Origin: Candidatus Uhrbacteria bacterium
GTDB lineage: Bacteria > Patescibacteriota > Patescibacteriia > 2-12-FULL-60-25
Reading direction: 5' to 3'
DNA: 36,755 nucleotides
Assembly: GCA_009691315.1 (NCBI GenBank)
Contig: SICT01000002.1
Span: 1 to 36,755 of the forward strand
Position numbers and translations under genes: made by a program. The notes under the pieces were generated by a model. That model did no database searches, was not told where the DNA came from, and saw only the letters and a program-made list of their open reading frames with translations. Below, piece by piece: positions 1 to 32,123 of the stretch (position 1 is the first letter of the stretch; each line of letters starts with the position of its first letter).

Positions 1-2027
1 GGAGAATCGATTATGTTAAAGAGCTCAATCAAGAGCAGCTGCGTGTTGTGTTGGAAGGAGATGATGCGTGTTTGGTGTTGGCGGGCGCGGGGTCGGGGAA
101 AACGCGGACGCTCACGTATCGGGTGGCGTATCTTTTAGAACAGGGGGTTGATCCGGCGTCGATTTTGCTTTTGACATTTACGAATAAAGCAGCCAAAGAA
201 ATGTTGATGCGGGTTGAATCATTGGTCGGTCAGATGGGTCGTGGGATCACTGGTGGAACGTTTCATTCGGTGGCGAGCCGTATGCTCCGCGTATTTGCAA
301 ATCGGTTGGATTATCATTCTCAATTCTCCATCCTCGATTCGGAAGACTCCCGCGATCTCATCAAGGCAGTGATGAAAGATTTGTCGATTGATCCGAAAGC
401 GCGGCGTTTTCCATCGGCTTCGGTGGTACTTGATATTATTTCTTTTGCACGCAATACGCAGACCTCGATTGAAGCTTCGCTTGAAATCAAACACCCAAAT
501 TTTTATGCTTTTTCTGGAGATATCGAAGAGATTGCCCGGCAATATCAGTTACGAAAAAAATCTTCGCAAGCCATGGACTTTGATGATTTGCTAACCAATC
601 TCGCGTTGCTTCAAACAGATCCGCAAGTGGGTGAGATGTTGGCCGGACGTTTTCAGTATGTGTTGGTTGATGAATATCAAGATACGAATGCGATGCAAGC
701 GAAACTCGTAAAGGGATTTGCGCGCGTGCATGAAAATATTTTAGTGGTGGGTGATGATGCACAATCTATTTATGCGTTTCGTGGAGCTGATGTAAAAAAC
801 ATTTTGCGTTTTCCAGATGAATGGCCTGATTCAAAAATGTTTAAGCTCGTCACGAACTATCGTTCCACGCCGCAGATTCTGGAGTTAGCGAATGAGTCAC
901 TTAAAAATAATCAACAGCAATTTGAAAAGGAGCTCGTGGGCGTGCGATCAAAAGGGGACAAGCCGCATTTGGTGCCATGTGCGTCAGCCGGTCAGGAAGC
1001 ACAATATGTCGCCGAGCAAATTTTGATGTTGCGACAAGAGGGAACCTCACTTCGTAATATCGCGGTGTTGTTTCGATCAAGCGCGCATTCGCAAGCACTT
1101 GAATTTGAATTGATGAAACGTGATTTGCCATACGAATATCGCGGCGGACAAAAGTTTTTTGAACGCGCGCATATTAAGGATGTGCTGGCGTTTTTGCGCG
1201 TCGCGAATAATGTGCGTGATGAAGTCGCTTGGCTTAGGGTTTTGGGTTTGCAATCAGGAATTGGGGCCGCAACAGCGAGCGCGCTTGCGAATCAACTCAA
1301 AGAATATGTGGAGTTTGATCAGGTGATGAAAGTTGGTATGCTCCCCGCGCTCTCTACACGTGCGCAAACCGGTTGGCAAGGCTTTTTAATGATCGCAGAA
1401 CGTATGCAAGTATTGGGATCAGCTCCTGCGATGATGATCCGCGGGATATGCAAGTCACCGTATCAAGATTATTTGGAGCGTGAATATCCAAACTGGCGAG
1501 ATCGTTTGGAAGATTTGGAACAGTTGGCATTATTTGCGGAAAATTACACCGAGCTCACACCATTTCTCTCAGACATTTCTTTATACGATGAAGTGGCGGC
1601 GAAACGCGAGGAGGCAGAGGCGCAAAAAGATCCGCCAGCTGGCGGAGAGCGGCTGATTCTGTCGACGATCCATCAAGCAAAAGGTTTGGAGTGGGATAGC
1701 GTGTTCATTATTCATCTGGCTGATAACGCTTTTCCGAATCGTCGAGCGCTTGCTGAAGAGGATGGCTTAGAAGAAGAACGACGTTTGTTTTATGTAGCGG
1801 TCACGCGCGCCCGTCGGAAACTGTTTCTGACCTATCCGCTGACCTTTGGCTATGACTCACTCATGTTCAATCAGCCTAGCACCTTTATCGACGAAGTTTC
1901 ACCAAGGTTATTTGATCGGGTTGAATTGCGATCGAGTGGTTTGCAACGTTTAAAATCATCAACGGTTTGGAGAACATTAGAGGATGAAGGATTTGAAGAG
2001 CCGGGAATAGATATTAATGAATTATGA
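1..2027 (+). CDS. UvrD/PcrA-type superfamily I DNA helicase, 5'-truncated by window edge
   Basis: Walker A AGAGSGKT, VDEYQDTN, GDDAQSIYAFRGA, STIHQAKGLEWDSVF, VAVTRARRKL. Frame stays open to the left edge (…YVKELNQEQLRVVLEGDDACLVLAG, Q-motif-like), so the GTG at 48 is probably not the true start. Confidence 0.95.
   Translation, partial: RIDYVKELNQEQLRVVLEGDDACLVLAGAGSGKTRTLTYRVAYLLEQGVDPASILLLTFTNKAAKEMLMRVESLVGQMGRGITGGTFHSVASRMLRVFANRLDYHSQFSILDSEDSRDLIKAVMKDLSIDPKARRFPSASVVLDIISFARNTQTSIEASLEIKHPNFYAFSGDIEEIARQYQLRKKSSQAMDFDDLLTNLALLQTDPQVGEMLAGRFQYVLVDEYQDTNAMQAKLVKGFARVHENILVVGDDAQSIYAFRGADVKNILRFPDEWPDSKMFKLVTNYRSTPQILELANESLKNNQQQFEKELVGVRSKGDKPHLVPCASAGQEAQYVAEQILMLRQEGTSLRNIAVLFRSSAHSQALEFELMKRDLPYEYRGGQKFFERAHIKDVLAFLRVANNVRDEVAWLRVLGLQSGIGAATASALANQLKEYVEFDQVMKVGMLPALSTRAQTGWQGFLMIAERMQVLGSAPAMMIRGICKSPYQDYLEREYPNWRDRLEDLEQLALFAENYTELTPFLSDISLYDEVAAKREEAEAQKDPPAGGERLILSTIHQAKGLEWDSVFIIHLADNAFPNRRALAEEDGLEEERRLFYVAVTRARRKLFLTYPLTFGYDSLMFNQPSTFIDEVSPRLFDRVELRSSGLQRLKSSTVWRTLEDEGFEEPGIDINEL
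1631..1646. repeat. 16-bp perfect palindrome TCCGCCAGCTGGCGGA inside helicase ORF
   Basis: tccgccag/ctggcgga read directly; translated as DPPAGGE between helicase motifs. Confidence 0.7.
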
Positions 2028-3671
2028 GCTGTGATTTAAAAATTGAGGTAGTTTAAATGATAGGGAAAAAGCATCAACGGTTTCAATAAAAAGTTGTTTT
2101 AAGGTTTCCATTTCGAACAGTGTTTCTGTGCCGACGGCAATACGGACGAAAGGTGATCCGTCTCGAGACTCTGCATAACGAGCTGAAAGATAGGCGCGGG
2201 TGGTATCAAATCCAAAACTCGTTCCCGCGTTTAAATCCACGTTTTTCTTTTTTGCCTTTGACAGCAACAGCGCTAGAAAAGCGTCATAGACCAATACATG
2301 GCGAAAACCAAATTTGAAGGCAATGGTAAAAAACGCTCCATGGAAAGGGTGGCTTTTTGTCCAAGCATAGGCAGGATGGGAGGCCAGGCCTGGATATAGG
2401 ATGTTTGCAATAGGCGTCCAGGTGAGGCCACGCACGTGTTCTTCAAGGGCTTGTGAGAGTATTTGGGCGTTGCGTTCAAAGCGTGTGAAGCGCTGTTCCA
2501 ATTTTTTGCGGTTAGGTTTGGGGAGTGTAAGGGCAGAGGTATGGGCAATATTCGTTCCAAGATGCATGCGAGCATACCACATTTTTCTCGCGGTACTGCC
2601 TTGAGCAAGAATCATTCCTCCGGTGATTTGATCAAAACCAAATTGATGGAATTTGACCAAACTTTCAATTCTGATCAGGTGGATGTGTGAGAGTGTGGGA
2701 AGATAAGAAAGGGGTTGCAAAGTCGAAGAGAGGGGGGTGTTATCCAGTACGAGATACATTTTTTCTTTGATGTTCTGAGCCAGAGCTTGGATAAGGGTTG
2801 TGATATCAGGAACGGGAATCAAGGGTGTATTGCACAGCGTATCTAGAAAAAGAATCTTTGGATGATATTTTGCTACGTTATCTAGAATGGCGCTTGTATC
2901 CATTTCATTAAACCAAGTAATTTTTCCCCCAAAGAGTTGTCTCAGCACATATTTGTTTTGAAAGTAAGAATTTTCTCCAACCATAATTTTATCTTCGGGC
3001 CCGCATTCGGGGAGGAGGGCAGTGGCGACGGTTGTCATAGCGGACATACCGCTTGATGTCAGAAGGCCTTGCACCGGGAGACCAAAAACAGCATCATGAT
3101 ATTCCTGCACAAACTGTTTTTGATACCAACTGGCTTCTGCGTGCAGGTCACGTTTATAGTCATTCTCACCGCTGTGAATGATTCCGGTTTCACGTCCAGC
3201 CTGTGAGAGAAAGGAGGAATCAGATGAGGGTGATTGCCAATCCGTTGAGGTCATTAATCCGGCGCCTGTAGAAAAGAGGCTTCGAAGCTGTCTCAAGATA
3301 TTTTTTTTTAACACAAGGAGAGCATCGAAGTGCTGTCTTGTCTTGTTTTGTTCACAGGTCGTGATGGCTTCCGTGAGTTGATGGATGAGAGAATGATATC
3401 TTTGAGAAGTCGTTTCAAAATCAGCGAGGAGCTCGCGTCGCGCTTCTTCGGGAAGGATATTTTCTTGTTTTTCAATTTGAGATTTTATTTTTTCAAAGTG
3501 CTCAAGCTGTGAGGTGGCAAGAAAAATAAACATATCAAAATCTTGAACAAGATCTTGAAGTGATTGATGGAATAGAGGACCCTGCTCACTCATAGGATAG
3601 GAGATAGCGAGATCATATATTGTCTGATAGCATACGTCCATGTCTTTTTTTGGATCTCTTGCTGTCTCCAA
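2022..3671 (-). CDS. PLP-dependent Cys/Met-metabolism-type enzyme (fold type I) with extra N-terminal helical region
   Basis: SSGMSAMTTVATALLP, KILFLDTLCNTPLIPVPDI, LVLDNTPLSSTLQPL, candidate PLP lysine in IESLVKFHQFGFDQITGGMIL. Start may be TTG 3671 or ATG 3641. Confidence 0.75.
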   Translation of the reverse strand: METARDPKKDMDVCYQTIYDLAISYPMSEQGPLFHQSLQDLVQDFDMFIFLATSQLEHFEKIKSQIEKQENILPEEARRELLADFETTSQRYHSLIHQLTEAITTCEQNKTRQHFDALLVLKKNILRQLRSLFSTGAGLMTSTDWQSPSSDSSFLSQAGRETGIIHSGENDYKRDLHAEASWYQKQFVQEYHDAVFGLPVQGLLTSSGMSAMTTVATALLPECGPEDKIMVGENSYFQNKYVLRQLFGGKITWFNEMDTSAILDNVAKYHPKILFLDTLCNTPLIPVPDITTLIQALAQNIKEKMYLVLDNTPLSSTLQPLSYLPTLSHIHLIRIESLVKFHQFGFDQITGGMILAQGSTARKMWYARMHLGTNIAHTSALTLPKPNRKKLEQRFTRFERNAQILSQALEEHVRGLTWTPIANILYPGLASHPAYAWTKSHPFHGAFFTIAFKFGFRHVLVYDAFLALLLSKAKKKNVDLNAGTSFGFDTTRAYLSARYAESRDGSPFVRIAVGTETLFEMETLKQLFIETVDAFSLSFKLPQFLNHSS

Positions 3672-4581
3672 AAATCCAATTAAACTCGTAGAATTGGATC
3701 TTGGTCCGCGAAAAATTCAGATACCAGTTTTTGATCTCCAAGGGAAGAATGGGGATGGAAAAACTCTCTTGATCACTGCTGGAATGGATGGAGACGAATA
3801 CGCTGGCATGGAGGCGGCCTACCAATTCATTGAGCAGTTCAAGATGGGAGACTTTTGCGGACGCCTGATTATCATTCCCTGTTTTAATATTCCGGGGTTC
3901 GAAGCGGAGGAAAGTTTTAACCCACTGGATATGCGTCACCCAAGAGATACTTTTCCGGGAACGGCACAGGGCAAACCCACGGAGAGATTAATCTATTGGC
4001 TGATGAATGGGTATGCATCATCAGCCCACATCTGGTGTGATCTGCATGGAGGAGGTGGTACTGAAAGACTTCGTCCTTTTCTATGGATGTTTGAGACAGG
4101 TGAACCATCCATTCAACTCTTGGCAAAACAAATCATGGCTTCTCTTTCTGCTAACACAATTGTTTCGGATAAAGTTTCTCGATGGTCTAAGGCCGTGCCG
4201 CTCGCGCGTCGAGGCTGTTTGTATTTTATGGCTGAATCAGGCGATCGCAGATGTGCTGACGATGGCGCGGTTCAACATGTCAAATGGATGCACAGTGTTA
4301 TGAGCCTCCTTCATATGATCTCGCCGACACTGACAGATCAAGCTCAGCCTTCGATTGTTTTAAAAAATTTGCATTTTTTGAGAGCTGATTTTGATGGCTT
4401 TTGGAGACCGCTTCAGGATATGCCAGTTCAGATAGGCAGACACGATATCATTGGGATGAGGATGAAGATCCAAAAAGGAGTCTGGAACGAGGTTCGGATA
4501 TCTCATGCAGGTCAAATTTTATACTGGAAAGAAACTCATCGGATGAAGCGGGGAGAGATCTTGGCCGCGATCGGCTATTAA
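3640..4581 (+). CDS. Succinylglutamate desuccinylase/aspartoacylase (AstE/AspA)-like zinc deacylase
   Basis: LLITAGMDGDEYAGMEAAYQFIEQF, IPCFNIPGFE, WCDLHGGGGTERLRPFLW, C-terminal beta-rich domain. Confidence 0.7.
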   Translation: MSFFGSLAVSKNPIKLVELDLGPRKIQIPVFDLQGKNGDGKTLLITAGMDGDEYAGMEAAYQFIEQFKMGDFCGRLIIIPCFNIPGFEAEESFNPLDMRHPRDTFPGTAQGKPTERLIYWLMNGYASSAHIWCDLHGGGGTERLRPFLWMFETGEPSIQLLAKQIMASLSANTIVSDKVSRWSKAVPLARRGCLYFMAESGDRRCADDGAVQHVKWMHSVMSLLHMISPTLTDQAQPSIVLKNLHFLRADFDGFWRPLQDMPVQIGRHDIIGMRMKIQKGVWNEVRISHAGQILYWKETHRMKRGEILAAIGY

Positions 4582-4590
4582 CAATCTGTT

Positions 4591-6039
4591 ATGAGCTGGC
4601 TTTATGAGCGCCAACGATTCACATCGGAAAAAAATGGCACGATTGTCTGTACACGTGAGCTTGGTCGTTGGAGTGTGATCGTGGAGGGATATGTGGAGAG
4701 TGCGCCTTACATGAGGCATTTGTGGTGCCGCGCCTTGCAACGCGTGCCAAAAGAAGCGTGTATAAAAAAAATTTTAATTTTAGGTTTTGGCGCCGGAGGA
4801 AATATCGTTCAGTTGCATCGTCGTTATCCAGGGTGCCAGATCACAGCCATCGAATGGGATCCTGTGATGATCAAGATTGCAGATCAACTCAAGATGTACC
4901 CGCGGGAATGGCACCCGCAGATTCTCTTAGATGATGTAGAACAGGCCGTGAAAACTTTGCAAGAAAAATTTGACCTTATTCTTTTTGATATTTACACGGC
5001 AAATCGGATCCTGCCATCTGCAGGCACCTCGAGATTCGTATCTGACACGGCGCGTTTACTTGAGCCGGATGGATATCTGCTATTTAACGCGAACGTTGTG
5101 ACAGGGCCATCTGTTTTAGAATCGATTGGCCATGATTTGTGTGAACATGAGCGTTGGCGTTATCGTTGGAATACGATTGCCCTCTTCCGCCATTTTGGTC
5201 GTGGAATGATAGGCGAATCGTTACCGTCAAGTTACACACCTTATCGATCCGTGCAGACATATCTTGCGCGTGATGGTGCAGGACAGAAAAATCGTTGGGT
5301 TATTGGGGATGAGCCTCAGAGAGGAGTTCGTTGGAAGCATGGACCTTTATGGTTTGAAGCGTATCACGGAGATCGAGACCCGATCATCAAACCATTTTTA
5401 CATTGGCGGATGATTATTTGGCAACCGTTTGTTCGGCTTGATCAGCCTAAGGGCTGGCATCGTTCTTGGGTACAGATGAATCCGCATCTGACCGGTTTTG
5501 CGGAGATCAAGCACCCGGATGCTTATTGGAAATCTTGGACGGATCATGCTCAACGCCATCGTAAACGCTGGCTCAAGCAAACGGATTTTACGCTGGAGGA
5601 GGTCGATCTGGAAATATTTATCAGTGCATACAAACACAGTCCAAAACTTCTTTTATTAAAAAGAGATTTTATTCATCTTTTGAAAAAAAAGAAGCGGGCG
5701 CATGGGGATTTGCTACATTTATTTGTCGCGCGCGAACGATTAACAAATCAAATCGTGGCAGGACTTGCCGTGCTTGATATTCCTGAGGCTCAGCAATCCA
5801 TTCATATCACGGCATTTTTTCTTCCATGCGTGAAACATACGTCCGTTAACGTTGGCTTAATGGATCACTGGTTTCAGGATGCCATTAAGAAAGACCTGCG
5901 CTTTCTTGATTTTGACTTGTTTTGGGCGCCAGGGGATCCGCGTGAGTGGAAAGGGTTCTCCAAATTCAAAAGCCAGTTTGGCACGCAGTTCGTGAGGTAT
6001 CCGAATCCATTGGTGAAATTTGTGAAGAAGAACAGGTAG
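4591..6039 (+). CDS. Two-domain protein: spermidine-synthase-like SAM-binding domain plus C-terminal FemAB/GNAT-like acyltransferase-like domain
   Basis: N-term ILILGFGAGGNIVQLHRRYPGCQITAIEWDPVMIKIA and FDLILFDIY…RLLEPDGYLLFN; C-term YWKSWTDHAQRHRKRWLKQ…LFVARERLTNQIVAGLAVLD…DFDLFWAPGDPREWKGFSKFKSQFG. Confidence 0.65.
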   Translation: MSWLYERQRFTSEKNGTIVCTRELGRWSVIVEGYVESAPYMRHLWCRALQRVPKEACIKKILILGFGAGGNIVQLHRRYPGCQITAIEWDPVMIKIADQLKMYPREWHPQILLDDVEQAVKTLQEKFDLILFDIYTANRILPSAGTSRFVSDTARLLEPDGYLLFNANVVTGPSVLESIGHDLCEHERWRYRWNTIALFRHFGRGMIGESLPSSYTPYRSVQTYLARDGAGQKNRWVIGDEPQRGVRWKHGPLWFEAYHGDRDPIIKPFLHWRMIIWQPFVRLDQPKGWHRSWVQMNPHLTGFAEIKHPDAYWKSWTDHAQRHRKRWLKQTDFTLEEVDLEIFISAYKHSPKLLLLKRDFIHLLKKKKRAHGDLLHLFVARERLTNQIVAGLAVLDIPEAQQSIHITAFFLPCVKHTSVNVGLMDHWFQDAIKKDLRFLDFDLFWAPGDPREWKGFSKFKSQFGTQFVRYPNPLVKFVKKNR

Positions 6040-6160: not shown

Positions 6161-6217
6161 TCTGAATCAGGTGTTTGAGGCTTGATTTTTTCATCAAAAT
6201 CGTCTAAGGTTTTGGCC

Positions 6218-7210
6218 ATGTCATTTGCTCGTGTGCGTGGCCCTGGGCAACCAGACCAAGCCTGTGATTTGATCGCCGCGGCGATTGTGGAGGAGTATGT
6301 ACGTCGTGATCCGGCTTCGTGTTTGCGTTTGCACGTGTCGGGCGGGCGCGGGGCGATTTTTGTCTCCGGCGAAGTTTCTTCCTCTGCAGATTTTGACGTC
6401 TCAGCCATTGTTCGCCGAGCGCTCGGTTCGTGTGGTGTGAATGCATTGATGGAGCCTTTTATTGCGCTTGAAGTGATGAGCCCGCGTACTGCGATTGCTC
6501 GGGCCAGTCATGAAACGGTACACGCGTTTGGTTATGTGACGACGCAAACAAATGATGGATTCCCTCGTCCAGTTTCTTTAGCCAGAGATTTTGCACGCGA
6601 ATTCGAACGTCGCCGCACGAGCGATGCCGATTGGTTTTGGTTGGGGTCAGATTATGAAGTTATGGTTCAGGAAAAAAATGATGCGCCACTTGTTATCGTT
6701 CGCGCAGAACATGTGGCAACGCAAGAAGTAGCTCAAGTGCGAGAAGCAATTTCATCACTCCTGACAACACGGGCACCAGGGATCGAAGTGCGCGTAAATC
6801 CATCTGGAGAAGAAACGTCCGCTGGACTCGCCGGTCGCATGGGCGGTTCTGGTCGTGCGAGTTCCATCGATCAATATGGAACGATGTTACCCATGAGTCC
6901 ATCAGGCGTGGGACAGCAGGCGACCCACCCGGCCAATATGGGAGCTTGGTTGTGTCGACAGGTTGCGCTTGAACTGGTTCGCCGCGGGAAAGGAAAAGCG
7001 ATCGCCGTGCATGCCATGTGGTTGCCGCTCGAATCACGTCCACACCATGTCCGCATACGAAATGAAAAAGGTGAAGATCTTGCTTCACAGATCGATTTAG
7101 AAAAATTTGATTTATCGAAAGTCCCAGAATCTTTTCTTACCCCACATCTCGTGACAGCGAGTCTTCGCCATCCGTTTGACGGTAGTGTGACTCTTCCGTG
7201 GGAGGAATAG
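6218..7210 (+). CDS. Divergent S-adenosylmethionine synthetase (MetK)-like protein
   Basis: GPGQPDQACDLIAAAIVEEYVRRDP…FVSGEVSSSADFDVSAIVRRALGSCG parallels MetK EGHPDKxADQISDAILD…GEITTSAxVD; VRVNPSGEETSAGLAGRMGGSGRASSIDQYG parallels INPTGRFxxGGxxGDxGLTGRKIIVDTYG. Confidence 0.65.
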   Translation: MSFARVRGPGQPDQACDLIAAAIVEEYVRRDPASCLRLHVSGGRGAIFVSGEVSSSADFDVSAIVRRALGSCGVNALMEPFIALEVMSPRTAIARASHETVHAFGYVTTQTNDGFPRPVSLARDFAREFERRRTSDADWFWLGSDYEVMVQEKNDAPLVIVRAEHVATQEVAQVREAISSLLTTRAPGIEVRVNPSGEETSAGLAGRMGGSGRASSIDQYGTMLPMSPSGVGQQATHPANMGAWLCRQVALELVRRGKGKAIAVHAMWLPLESRPHHVRIRNEKGEDLASQIDLEKFDLSKVPESFLTPHLVTASLRHPFDGSVTLPWEE

Positions 7211-27475: not shown

Positions 27476-27991
27476 GCCCACAATAACATAAGAAGAGTCA
27501 GTCAGTGATGAGTCCTGATCTTGATCACGATTCGTCAGTGTCTGTCTCACAAGAGTTCTGGATGAGATGAGTGGGTTGGACCGGTCTTCGACAACCAAAT
27601 AGCACAATCAGTATGTGATATGTGCAAGGCATTGGAACGTTTGTGTACAGCAAACGTTCACAACCCAAATTGTAAGCAATAAAAAATACACCTTAAAGAA
27701 ATCTGTCATTCAATCTTATCTCTATCAATAACATGGGAGGGATGAGCATCTGGATGGCCGAAGCACGTAAGGGCGTACGGTGGATGGCTAGGCAGAGAGG
27801 AGCCGATGAAGGACGTGGCAGCCTGCGATAAGTCTCGGGGAGGTGGCAAGCAACCTTTGATCCGAGAATGTCCGAATGGGGAAACCTTTCCGCATAAACT
27901 GCGGAAGCTCGACCTCTGAATACATAGGAGGCGAGAGGGCACCTGGGGAAGTGAAACATCTCAGTACCCAGAGGAAAAGAAACAAATATAC

Positions 27992-28047
27992 GCAGACTTT
28001 TTATCCCGCAATGATTCTTCATGAATCACACGGGATAAAAAGTCTGC
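27992..28047 (+). other. Hairpin intervening-sequence-like insertion in 23S rRNA
   Basis: gcagactttttatcccg…cgggataaaaagtctgc (17-bp perfect stem) with inner tgattc/gaatca, inserted between agaaacaaata and attccc…agtagcggcgagcgaa. Confidence 0.75.
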
Positions 28048-28991
28048 ATGATTCCCTTAGTAGCGGCGAGCGAAACGGGACGAGCCCAAACCTTTATCAT
28101 TAACCTTTGTAAGAAGTTAGACGCAAGTTTAGCAACGAGCAGAGGGGCGAGCGTGGGCTTTCGTGATAAGGGGGTTGCGGGACGGAACATGCCAATCCCA
28201 TGAGCGGCATGAAGAGAAGATCACGTTAGTTGAATCCACTGGAAAGTGGAACCATAGACGGTGATAGTCCGGTAAACGAAAATTTGATCTTCCTTCAGTT
28301 CCTGATCCAAAGTACTACGAGGCTCGAGAAACCTCGTAGGAAGCAGCCACGACGATGTGGCAAGGCTAAATACTCCTCCTGACCGATAGTGAACAAGTAC
28401 AGTGATGGAAAGCTGAAAAGTAGCCCGGGAGGGCGATGAAATAGTATCTGAAACCGTACGCTTACAAGGAGTTGGAGTGGTTGTCGCAAGACAACCATGA
28501 CAGCGTTCCTATTGAAGAATGAGCCGACGAGTGTGATATACGTCGCTTGGTTAAGCCCCTGCGGGGGCGAAGCCGTAGTGAAAGCGAGCCTGAATAGGGC
28601 GTTTGTGGCGTATACACGACCCGAAACCCGGTGATCTAACCATGTCCAGGATGAAGTCCCGCGAAAGCGGGATGGAGGTCCGAACCCACGAGCCGTGCAA
28701 CACTCGGGGATGAGATGTGGTTAGAGGTGAAATTCCAATCGAACTGGGTGATAGCTGGTTCTCCCTGAAATAGATTTTGGTCTAGCGCTGATTAATAGCA
28801 TAACGGAGGTAGAGCACTGAATGGGGCCTGGGGCGCAAGCCTACAGTTTCCAACCAAACTCCGAATGCCGTTATGTGTTCCCAGCAGTCAGTCCTTGGGG
28901 GCTAAGCTCCAATGGACAAAAGGGAAACAGCCCTTGATCGCAGACTAAGGTCCCTAAATTCTTCCTCAGTGTCAAAGGTGGTCAGGTGACT

Positions 28992-29029
<38 letters not shown>

Positions 29030-29870
29030 TAAAGAAAGCGTAACAGCTCACTGGTCAAGTTGCTCGGCGCCGAAAACTTATCGGGGCTTAAGGAAGATAC
29101 CGAAGTCGCGGATTCATTTGATCTTCGGATCGAGTGAGTGGTAAGGGAGCATTCTCTTTGCGCCGAAGCGGAAGGCGTGAGCCACCGTGGAGCGGAGAGA
29201 AGTGAGAATGTCGGCATGAGTAGCAAAAAGACAGGTGAAAATCCTGTCCACCATAAACCCAAGGTTTCCAGGGCAACGCGAATCGTCCCTGGGTTAGTCG
29301 GTCCTAAGGCGAGGCTGAAAAGCGTAGTCGATGGACAGCAGGTTAATATTCCTGCACTTCCCTATTTTTTCGACGGAGTGACACATCGTTCAACTGGTCG
29401 AGTCTCTTGGAATGAGACTTCGGGCACGAAGGGGTGATTGATAGGTAAATCCGTCAGTCGCAAACCTCGTTGTGATCGTAAGTTTGCTGAAAGGCAAGCA
29501 AGGGCCGGGACTGCGGTGTCGAGAAAACCTCCTAGAGCTAAGGATAGGGGAACCGTACCGTAAACCGACACAGGTGGGTGGGCATACGTGTGCCAAGGTG
29601 TACGAGAGAACCCATGTTTAGGAACTCGGCAATACAACGGCCGTACCTTCGGTATAAGGCCTGCCCAGAGCAATCTGGGCCGCAGCTAAAGACGCTTTCC
29701 GACTGTTTACCAAAAACACAGCTTCCTGCTAAACCGCAAGGTGATGTATAGGAAGTGATGCCTGGCCAGTGTCAGAACGTTAAGGAGAGGGGTCATCCCG
29801 CAGCAATGCGGGGGCAGCTCTGAACTGAAGCGCTGATGAACGCCGGCGATAACTATAATCGTCCTAAGGT

Positions 29871-30602
29871 TCGCGAACTCTCTTTTGAGGGTGAGCGAAG
29901 GACTGGGACGATTGTAGGCAAATTGGTAAATCGCAATAAGCTGCCTCGCTCAGTAGTAATATTGAGTTGGTCTAAAAATAATTGGCTATATGCTGGAAAA
30001 TCTAGAAATGATAATGCAACTAGGGTATAATTCGACCATAGATTTATGCCCAAGAAAATCGTTTCAGACAATCAGCAGGAAAGGCCAGAAATCATTTATT
30101 GGATCTGTGGGTTTGTCGATGGTGAAGGATGCTTCTCGGTAAGTATCATTCGCAATCAAACCACGAGCCTTGGATGGCAAGTGTTCCCAGAGTTTGTTGT
30201 CACGCAGGGAGAGAAGAGCAGATTCGCGCTAGAGAAAATAAAGGAATATTTTCAGTGCGGTGAGATCTACCTCAATCGGCGTCACGATAATCACAAGGAA
30301 TCACTCCTACGATTCTGTGTTCGATCGCAAAAGGATCTTCGAGAAAAGATTATACCTTTCTTCTCCAAGTTTCCTCTGCATACTGCGAAACGAGAAGATT
30401 TCAAAAAGTTTGTGAAAATCCTTCAGTTCATGAAGCGAGGAGATCACAAACAATTAAAAGGAATCCGATCGATCGCAGGGATTATTCAAAATATGAATCG
30501 AAAAGTGCCATCACGATTTCTGGAATCCTCAGAGACTACACGCCAATCCCCCGATGTAACATCGGGGTGAAGATATAGTCCTTCGTCATCAAGGAAACGA
30601 AA
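29871..30602 (+). other. Group I intron in 23S rRNA (after the H69 region; E. coli about 1926-1931)
   Basis: Interrupts the conserved cctaaggt|agcgaaattccttg; core aagatatagtcc at about 30570, P7 partner agacta, P8-like ccccgatg/catcgggg; boundaries approximate. Confidence 0.85.
30046..30570 (+). CDS. Intron-encoded LAGLIDADG homing endonuclease
   Basis: IIYWICGFVDGEGCFSVSIIRNQ…FPEFVVTQGEKSRFALEKIKEYFQCGEIY…LRFCVRSQKDLREKIIPFFSKFPL. Confidence 0.92.
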   Translation: MPKKIVSDNQQERPEIIYWICGFVDGEGCFSVSIIRNQTTSLGWQVFPEFVVTQGEKSRFALEKIKEYFQCGEIYLNRRHDNHKESLLRFCVRSQKDLREKIIPFFSKFPLHTAKREDFKKFVKILQFMKRGDHKQLKGIRSIAGIIQNMNRKVPSRFLESSETTRQSPDVTSG

Positions 30603-31148
30603 AGCGAAATTCCTTGTCGGGTGAGTTCCGACCCGCACGAATGGCATAACGAGAGAGCGACTGTCTCAACATGGGACTCGGTGAAATTGCAAGTGGGGTG
30701 AAGATGCCCTGTACGCGCAGTCAGACGAAAAGACCCCGTGAAGCTTTACTATAAGTTGATATTGGGTATCGGTTTAGCATGTTCAGCGTAGGTGGGAGCG
30801 TAAGCACCAATGAGACACCACCCTTGCTCTATCGTTATTCTTATCACCGTCCGTGAAACCGGATGGTGAGACAGTATCTGCTGGGTAGTTTAACTGGGGC
30901 GGTTGCCTCCCAAAAAGTAACGGAGGCGTTCACAAAGGTCAGCTAGCTCCGGATGGAAATCGGAGCGATTCCGCAATGGGATAAGCTGGCTTAACTGCAA
31001 GACCAACAAGTCGAGCAGATGCGAAAGCAGGACATAGTGATCCGACCGTACGATATCGGACGGCGGAAGCTCAACGGATAAAAGCTACTCCGGGGATAAC
31101 AGGCTGATCTGGTCCAAGAGTCCACATCGACGACCAGGTTTGGCACCT

Positions 31149-31448
31149 TAATTAACATCGGGGTGCATCAGAAGTGATTCTGATCCAAAAAATACGGCTA
31201 TAACGGTGAAACCGTCAGTGACACAGTGGAAGAGTCGTGTCACCCGGCAATACCGTGGGAAGTTATCGAGTCAAACTTGATAACCCCGTAACGACTGACC
31301 CGAAAGGGGAGAGTCCCGCCATCCGGTGGGGCTAATACGCCGACGCTCGCTAAAAAAACCGAGATTACGCCTCAGAACGGCTACGATCCGGAGCGAGATG
31401 AAGATATAGTCTGGACCATATGAAAATATGGAGTGAGAAGTCCGACAG
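31149..31448 (+). other. ORF-less group I intron in 23S rRNA at the L2500-equivalent site
   Basis: Interrupts tttggcacct|cgatgtcgg; P1 GCACCU/GGGUGC with U.G at the splice site; core gatgaagatatagtctgg; last intron nucleotide is G. Confidence 0.9.
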
Positions 31449-31464
31449 CGATGTCGGCCCATCG

Positions 31465-31560
<96 letters not shown>

Positions 31561-32002
31561 CTGTCTACTGTGCGCGTGGAAAGTTGCGAGGGCGAATCTC
31601 TAGTACGAGAGGACCGAGATTCATAGACCTCTAGTGTGCCGGCTGTCCTACCAAGGGCACCGTCGGGTAGCTACGTCTAGCACGGATAAACGCTGAAAGC
31701 ATCTAAGCGTGAAGCCGTCCTCAAGATTAACTTTCATTATGAGGATCCTCCGAGACCAGGAGGTTGATAGGTGGTAGGTGTAAGAGTCGCAAGACTTTGA
31801 GCCGAGCCATACTAATCGTCCCATGCTTCGGCCATCTAGCTGGCCCCGTGATCGATTTACTCGATTTTACGGGGATGATGGCTGAAATTCACAAGGTGTA
31901 TAGGCTTACAATCTGCCTTGCACATACTACATACTGATCCGTTGTGCCACCGACTTTGCTTTTGCAATCTACAAGCCACGGTCTTGTTTTTGTGAGGCGG
32001 GG

Positions 32003-32118
32003 CCGGTGGCCCAAGCGACAAGGATACACCCGTTCCCATCCCGAACACGGCAGTTAAGCTTGTCAGCAGCGATGGTACTTGGACCCAACCCGGTCCTGGG
32101 AGAGTAGCCCGCTGCCGG
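32003..32118 (+). rRNA. 5S rRNA
   Basis: ccggtggc…ccgttcccatcccgaacacggcagttaagc…ggtcctgggagagtagcccgctgccgg. Confidence 0.95.
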
Positions 32119-32123
32119 ATTAC

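Follow-up and report, generated by a model that had tools for sequence, protein, structure and literature searches.

A 36,755-nt stretch of Candidatus Uhrbacteria DNA (hereafter the window) contains an open reading frame in which a spermidine-synthase-like domain appears to be joined to a FemAB/GNAT-like domain. The questions are whether this fusion is a genuine gene and, if so, which groups its two heads transfer and from which donors. The ORF (4591-6039, plus strand) starts with ATG and comprises 482 codons with 0 internal stops. It is present as a single copy in the host genome (search of 0.94 Mb in 74 contigs), and an AF2 model of the whole 482-aa fusion had a pLDDT of 87.9. All motifs given in an earlier note on this DNA were located in the translated protein: ILILGFGAGGN at residues 61-71, ITAIEWDP at 84-91, FDLILFDIYTANRILP at 127-142 and YWKSWTDHAQRHRKRWLKQ at 312-330. 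The domain border, placed at approximately 230/240 in that note, was found close by, at 205/206. The gene and its two parts are as follows.

4591..6039, plus strand: fusion gene, 482 aa, spermidine-synthase-fold SAM domain plus FemABX-like double-GNAT domain (intact ORF, full-length relatives)
4591..5205, plus strand: N-domain, residues 1-205, predicted SAM-binding Rossmann domain with a short N-terminal beta region (Pfam, NCBIfam and PDB profiles)
5206..6036, plus strand: C-domain, residues 206-482, FemABX-like tandem GNAT (AF2, Foldseek, hhalign)

Full-length relatives (32-54% identity) were identified in 11 of the 41 genomes of the host's taxonomic family, host included; this count excludes genome G039, where the fusion gene is truncated by a contig end. 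The alignment of these 11 members showed numerous invariant residues in both halves of the protein. Among 381 sampled genomes of the class, 19 contained full-length or near full-length fusions, and fused genes occurred in several families. Since full-length relatives occur in family and class genomes, the fusion ORF is a real gene that is conserved in other Patescibacteria. A search of genome contigs with the single protein as query gave no matches, whereas an alignment query did find named Patescibacteria loci: records of the fusion family belonged to Candidatus Uhrbacteria, and relatives were labelled Magasanikbacteria, Falkowbacteria and Kaiserbacteria.

The two domains were then scored separately in the 381 genomes, and the C-domain was present in 38 and the N-domain in 23. 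All 23 genomes with the N-domain also carried the C-domain (expected 2.3, p 3e-27 with kinship ignored; the sampled genomes are related, so such co-occurrence p-values overstate independence). The domains were fused in 19 of these genomes, encoded by neighbouring genes in two (G250, G049) and located on different contigs in two (G243, G200); other genomes had the C-domain without the N-domain. Pairwise distances of the N- and C-domains correlated across the 23 genomes (r 0.84). Beyond the sample, N-only loci were found in three Uhrbacteria/Magasanikbacteria genomes, each with a clear C-domain elsewhere in the genome, and the weaker C-domain matches obtained in Collierbacteria and Gottesmanbacteria possibly represent ordinary FemABX proteins. 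The pairing is not due to chance, as every N-domain genome also carries the C-domain, and both heads probably act in one pathway. As both split and fused versions exist in nature, coupling of the two reactions can be tested directly in vitro.

The assignment of the N-terminal half as spermidine-synthase-like held up in profile and structure comparisons. For the fusion protein the Pfam match to Methyltransf_25 (7e-7) was above the cut-off, and the best match to Spermine_synth within the fusion family was 5e-8. Among PDB sequences, the N-domain profile matched spermidine synthases (4.5e-13) and the C-domain of METTL13 (2.7e-12). Every family member matched both SAM-methyltransferase and spermidine-synthase profiles in this region, and Foldseek analysis of the full model assigned the N-domain to the spermidine-synthase fold, with the Rossmann fold of the Spermine_synth family. 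The best NCBIfam match was PRK04457/NF003380 'polyamine aminopropyltransferase' (2e-9); with 37 bits versus a cut-off of 304, the N-domain is not a member of this family. The glycine-rich loop and the acid at the end of strand 2, both class I methyltransferase features, were found, and the SAM-binding residues G69 (25/25), E/D88 (25/25) and D115 (24/25) were conserved in the aligned N-domains. The N-domain very probably binds SAM. Two short segments bear on what it does with it.

4783..4797, plus strand: GxGxG loop, residues 65-69 (GFGAG), Ala replacing the acid of GxG(D/E)G (25-member count)
4987..5001, plus strand: residues 133-137 (DIYTA), D133 conserved throughout, second DxxD Asp not retained (25-member count)

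From these matches, the N-domain could belong to a polyamine-type enzyme that moves aminopropyl from decarboxylated SAM, the C-domain then adding an acyl or aminoacyl cap to the product. Besides the fold and the best profile matches, D133, the equivalent of the first Asp of DxxD, speaks for such an activity with its conservation in 25 of 25 N-domains; the second Asp, at position 136, was found in only 2 of 25, and position 135 was F or Y in 25/25. The earlier note had flagged this region as unlike the aminopropyltransferase active site and proposed that the chemistry may differ. The 25 aligned sequences bore out the departure; the key change, however, lies not there but in the GxGxG loop, where residue 68, the acid of the aminopropyltransferase GxG(D/E)G, was acidic in 0 of 25. 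NHMT, a methyltransferase with spermidine-synthase fold, carries Ile in place of this acid, the absence of which distinguishes it from spermidine synthases according to its authors (PMC10349129), and the equivalent Asp is likewise Ile in plant putrescine N-methyltransferase (PMC3725402), although the GxG(D/E)G criterion is a rule of thumb. The N-domain thus shares its fold with the METTL13 C-domain (5wcj), fungal NHMT and plant putrescine N-methyltransferase, and with the latter two also the GxGxG without acid; the three differ from it in being eukaryotic, in having other partner domains and in acting on known substrates.

Aminopropyl transfer also depends on supply of the donor, as decarboxylated SAM requires AdoMet decarboxylase. 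None was detected in the host or in 17 of 20 fusion genomes (draft genomes), 3 of the 20 having one, and the gene was not enriched with the N-domain (3/23 seen versus 4.2 expected in the 381 genomes); it was rejected as a pathway partner on this ground. In one genome (G345) an AdoMet decarboxylase lies near the cluster, as would suit a polyamine route; this is probably a coincidence. There, the decarboxylase gene (G345:C31:7739-8047, locus L082) is located ~0.7 kb from the amidohydrolase gene described below, with a PIN-like ORF between both genes and a ribonucleotide-reductase-like ORF beyond (by eye).

The acid missing from GxG(D/E)G points to a SAM-dependent, probably methyl, transfer, and methyl transfer from SAM is favoured over an aminopropyl reaction, since AdoMet decarboxylase is mostly absent and not enriched. 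Judged from sequence, the N-domain is therefore likely to transfer methyl rather than aminopropyl, the group moved probably being an N-methyl, and a polyamine-type enzyme appears improbable. A protein that annotation would label spermidine synthase can thus be another enzyme.

For the C-terminal half, the earlier note had proposed a FemAB/GNAT-like acyltransferase and, as a check, an AlphaFold-type model with Foldseek. Both were run, and the region proved acyltransferase-like in fold. The AF2 model of the C-domain, built from 34 sequences, reached a pLDDT of 94.8 and a pTM of 0.90. Its best solved matches were Sbb17/Sba18 (9wqw, 9wqx, 9wqy; TM 0.60-0.64, E ~1e-11), aminoacyl-tRNA-dependent peptide synthases of the streptothricin type. 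They resemble the C-domain in size and double-GNAT architecture, and differ from it in identity (14-15%), in being stand-alone proteins without a SAM domain and in acting on streptothrisamine. FemX of Weissella (TM ~0.66) and Staphylococcus, MprF-type aminoacyl-phosphatidylglycerol synthases and FemA came next; against Sbb17/Sba18 and Weissella FemX the predicted model gave TM values of 0.60-0.67, in agreement with a double-GNAT fold. The top 26 solved structures were all aminoacyl-tRNA-dependent transferases or close family, and acetyl-CoA tandem GNATs followed from rank 27. Identities to the matched structures were only ~10-20%, too low for these matches to reveal donor or acceptor.

Leucyl/phenylalanyl-tRNA-protein transferase (Aat) appeared at rank 47, and METTL13-C and fungal NHMT, which share the spermidine-synthase fold with the N-domain, act as methyltransferases on protein N-termini. 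These two observations would fit a modification of protein N-termini, with an amino acid attached by the C-domain and the N-terminus so created methylated by the N-domain. Given a weak Aat match and partner genes that point to small-molecule work, this reading is highly improbable.

On the sequence level, a C-domain profile found no relative among PDB sequences, only a chance helix; Pfam FemAB (PF02388) matched neither the host protein nor the 11 members, the relation becoming apparent only when profiles were compared with profiles, or structures with structures. No Pfam or NCBIfam profile covered the C-domain well, nor the whole architecture. Because the PDB sequence profile found no relative, the link to FemABX was made via structure and via the canonical FemABX genes, which are present in 39 of the 41 genomes of the host family and whose profile matched FemX structures with E values of up to 1e-34. 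In a single hhalign comparison, the C-domain aligned to canonical FemABX with a probability of 94.5% (E 8e-8); the alignment covers mainly the second GNAT half, and the first half (residues 206-300) rests mainly on the structure match. The earlier assignment as FemAB/GNAT-like is confirmed by both approaches, and three segments are of functional interest.

5947..5979, plus strand: WKGFSKFKSQF, residues 453-463, putative FemABX catalytic Phe-Lys (34-row alignment, hhalign)
5536..5583, plus strand: basic helix region, residues 316-331 (WTDHAQRHRKRWLKQT), where FemABX proteins have their proposed tRNA-binding helix (alignment)
5839..5856, plus strand: TSVNVG, residues 417-422, degenerate loop where GNATs have their CoA pyrophosphate loop (34-row count)

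F459, K460 and F463 were invariant in 34 of 34 C-domains, and hhalign placed WKGFSKFKSQF onto SWEGITRFKLGWG of canonical FemABX. In FemX and DhpH-C, Lys305 and Lys329 (beside Phe328), respectively, handle the aminoacyl group (PMC12945691, review); we infer the equivalence of K460 and FemX Lys305 from the alignment of K460 with the canonical FemABX Lys, as Lys305 lies just beyond the printed alignment. A basic helix of the second GNAT domain is the proposed tRNA-binding element in FemABX (PMC12945691). At the corresponding place W316 and R322 were invariant, and helix 316-331 had a net charge of +2 to +6 in 34/34 rows. The stretch WTDHAQRHRKRWLKQ of the earlier note falls on this helix by alignment with canonical FemABX and is basic in every member. 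Structure matches, profile homology, the invariant Phe-Lys and the basic helix together identify the C-domain as a divergent FemABX-type domain, the descent of which is in little doubt.

With FemABX as parent group, and UDP-MurNAc-pentapeptide as FemX substrate (PMC12945691), the fusion could also be a peptidoglycan enzyme, in which the FemABX paralogue aminoacylates a cell-wall precursor and the newly attached residue is modified by the SAM domain. FemX, FemA and the canonical FemABX proteins of the same genomes share fold, Phe-Lys motif and basic helix with the C-domain; they are, however, longer (~335 residues for FemX versus 277), act on cell-wall precursors and are encoded by a separate gene in the same genomes, so that the wall role is already filled. 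The recurrent partners are PLP enzyme and amidohydrolase genes, not wall genes, and a wall function is accordingly improbable.

The donor was assessed further at the CoA-loop position. The C-domain could be an acyl-CoA- or acetyl-CoA-dependent tandem GNAT that combines SAM transfer with ordinary N-acylation, in line with the acyl transfer suggested in the earlier note. The acetyl-CoA enzymes that follow the FemABX group in the Foldseek ranking are in line with this, as is the weak match of 4 of the 11 members to Acetyltransf_6, a family with mixed donors. An SV-G-x-G loop at the place of the CoA pyrophosphate loop, with Gly at 420 and at 422 in 28 of 34 sequences each, also favours it; this GxG loop was not seen in the canonical FemABX alignment, which reads MAPYALHW there. 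The strict [QR]xxGx[GA] motif, however, was found in 1/34 C-domains only, most having a degenerate GxG and the window protein NxG with Asn for the first Gly. Moreover, every better structure match is aminoacyl-tRNA-dependent, and the C-domains retain both the Phe-Lys and the basic helix of FemABX. The degenerate GxG may leave room for an acyl-CoA donor, a reading we regard as unlikely. Of the earlier claim of a C-terminal acyltransferase, the fold stands; judged from motifs and the predicted model, aminoacyl-tRNA is the more probable donor than acyl-CoA, the domain being closest to the aminoacyl-tRNA-dependent FemABX branch.

The neighbourhood of the fusion gene, which the earlier note had overlooked, contains further candidate members of the same module.

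3640..4581, plus strand: AstE/AspA-family amidohydrolase, DoeB-like (Pfam AstE_AspA_cat 1e-15; 6twl 4.7e-17)
2022..3671, minus strand: Cys/Met-metabolism-type PLP enzyme with an N-terminal extension of ~190 aa (Cys_Met_Meta_PP 5e-19)
6182..7210, plus strand: divergent S-adenosylmethionine synthetase (MetK), downstream neighbour (S-AdoMet_synt_N 4e-10)

The amidohydrolase gene ends 9 bases upstream of the fusion gene, and the closest solved relative of its product is the N-acetyl-diaminobutyrate deacetylase DoeB (6twl). Of the zinc ligands HxxE...H, Glu and the second His are kept and the first His is replaced by Asp (AGMDGDEY versus GANHGDEY in DoeB); DGDEY also occurs in the relatives at loci L069, L082 and L084. 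The PLP gene is divergent from the amidohydrolase gene, and its ORF overlaps the latter, so the true start may be internal.

In the 381 genomes, the PLP enzyme had strong homologues in 17 and the amidohydrolase in 13, clearly set off from the next match; all carried the C-domain (17/17, p 2e-19, and 13/13, p 1e-14, kinship ignored in both). The 13 amidohydrolase genomes were all among the 17 PLP genomes, the gene lying near the PLP gene on the same contig, and the association with the C-domain persisted when counted by family (8/8, p 3e-10). One or both genes adjoin the C-domain gene in the window and in G040, G275, G345, G292 and G262. Elsewhere they are unlinked, which speaks against shared gene order as the sole cause of the association. 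Stand-alone C-domain genes occur as a tandem duplicate at L069 (4208-5984) and L070 (2398-4178), those at L069 adjoining PLP and amidohydrolase genes.

Within the 38 C-domain genomes, N-domain and PLP enzyme occurred together less often than expected (5 versus 10.3, p 6e-4, kinship ignored; the contig-end truncation in G039 may shift these counts slightly). Each being optional, the two may therefore be alternatives instead of steps of one route. The core is thus the FemABX-like domain, with the SAM domain and the pair of PLP enzyme and amidohydrolase as add-ons; we regard them as parts of one pathway, in which they may be alternative means of preparing or tailoring the acceptor.

A similar association is known from dehydrophos biosynthesis: DhpH has a PLP enzyme as its N-terminal half, reminiscent of the PLP gene that accompanies the fusion gene. 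DhpH differs in having a PLP rather than a SAM domain fused and in coming from Streptomyces, and it was likened by description, not by sequence. The likeness consists in a FemABX domain with Phe328/Lys329 that serves a natural-product route (PMC12945691).

The fusion protein is probably a cytosolic two-headed transferase. Our main reading, to which we assign a probability of roughly 0.5, is that it combines a tRNA-dependent aminoacyl transferase with a SAM-dependent transferase in a pathway with the PLP enzyme and the amidohydrolase. The C-terminal head would transfer an amino acid from aminoacyl-tRNA to the amine of a small acceptor (an amino acid, a peptide or similar), with Lys460 positioning the aminoacyl group and basic helix 316-331 holding the tRNA acceptor stem. 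The N-terminal head would bind SAM and transfer a group, most likely methyl, the target being an amine either of this acceptor or of the product; that both heads share a substrate is our inference. In part of the lineages, the Cys/Met-type PLP enzyme would make or tailor the amino-acid partner and the DoeB-like amidohydrolase would cut the amide for maturation or recycling. More tentatively, these parts might form a Patescibacteria-specific, tRNA-dependent small-peptide pathway in which a single polypeptide uses aminoacyl-tRNA to form an amide that it also N-methylates, while the PLP enzyme supplies an unusual amino acid and the DoeB-like hydrolase releases or recycles it.

The company of these genes suggests that Patescibacteria have a small-molecule or peptide pathway not described so far. 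Genomes of Patescibacteria are ~1 Mb in size with few biosynthetic genes, so a conserved multi-gene tRNA-dependent amide module is unexpected in them and should serve an important purpose there. The earlier note had called the pairing of SAM-dependent and acyl transfer uncommon. No characterised family with such an architecture was found in Pfam, NCBIfam or the open-access literature, and no description of a SAM-transferase/FemABX fusion in open-access papers. Both domains come from known superfamilies, and their fusion would be, as far as found, a new pairing.

Several other neighbours were considered. The divergent MetK gave weak matches to the MetK N, M and C domains and is apparently the host's sole MetK. 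It is a possible SAM supplier; as a dedicated partner it was rejected, being present in 38 of the 41 family genomes whether or not the fusion was. UvrD and a prolyl isomerase, constant neighbours in the host family, gave no functional lead, nor did the DUF6938 and glycosyl-hydrolase genes that neighbour the fusion gene in another family. At L085 (1815-8680), L086, L087 and L088, all from one family, a DUF6938 gene, a gene for a 527-aa protein and a glycosyl-hydrolase-like gene precede the fusion gene; the 527-aa protein had no Pfam or PDB match and is membrane-like by eye. An anti-phage defence library gave only a SAM-domain similarity to mad2, which was not counted as defence evidence.

Elsewhere in the window, the 23S rRNA gene (27756-31835) is ~4.1 kb long versus a 2.9-kb model and thus carries insertions. 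A LAGLIDADG homing-endonuclease ORF (30046-30570) lies inside it, and the 5S rRNA follows at 32002-32120.
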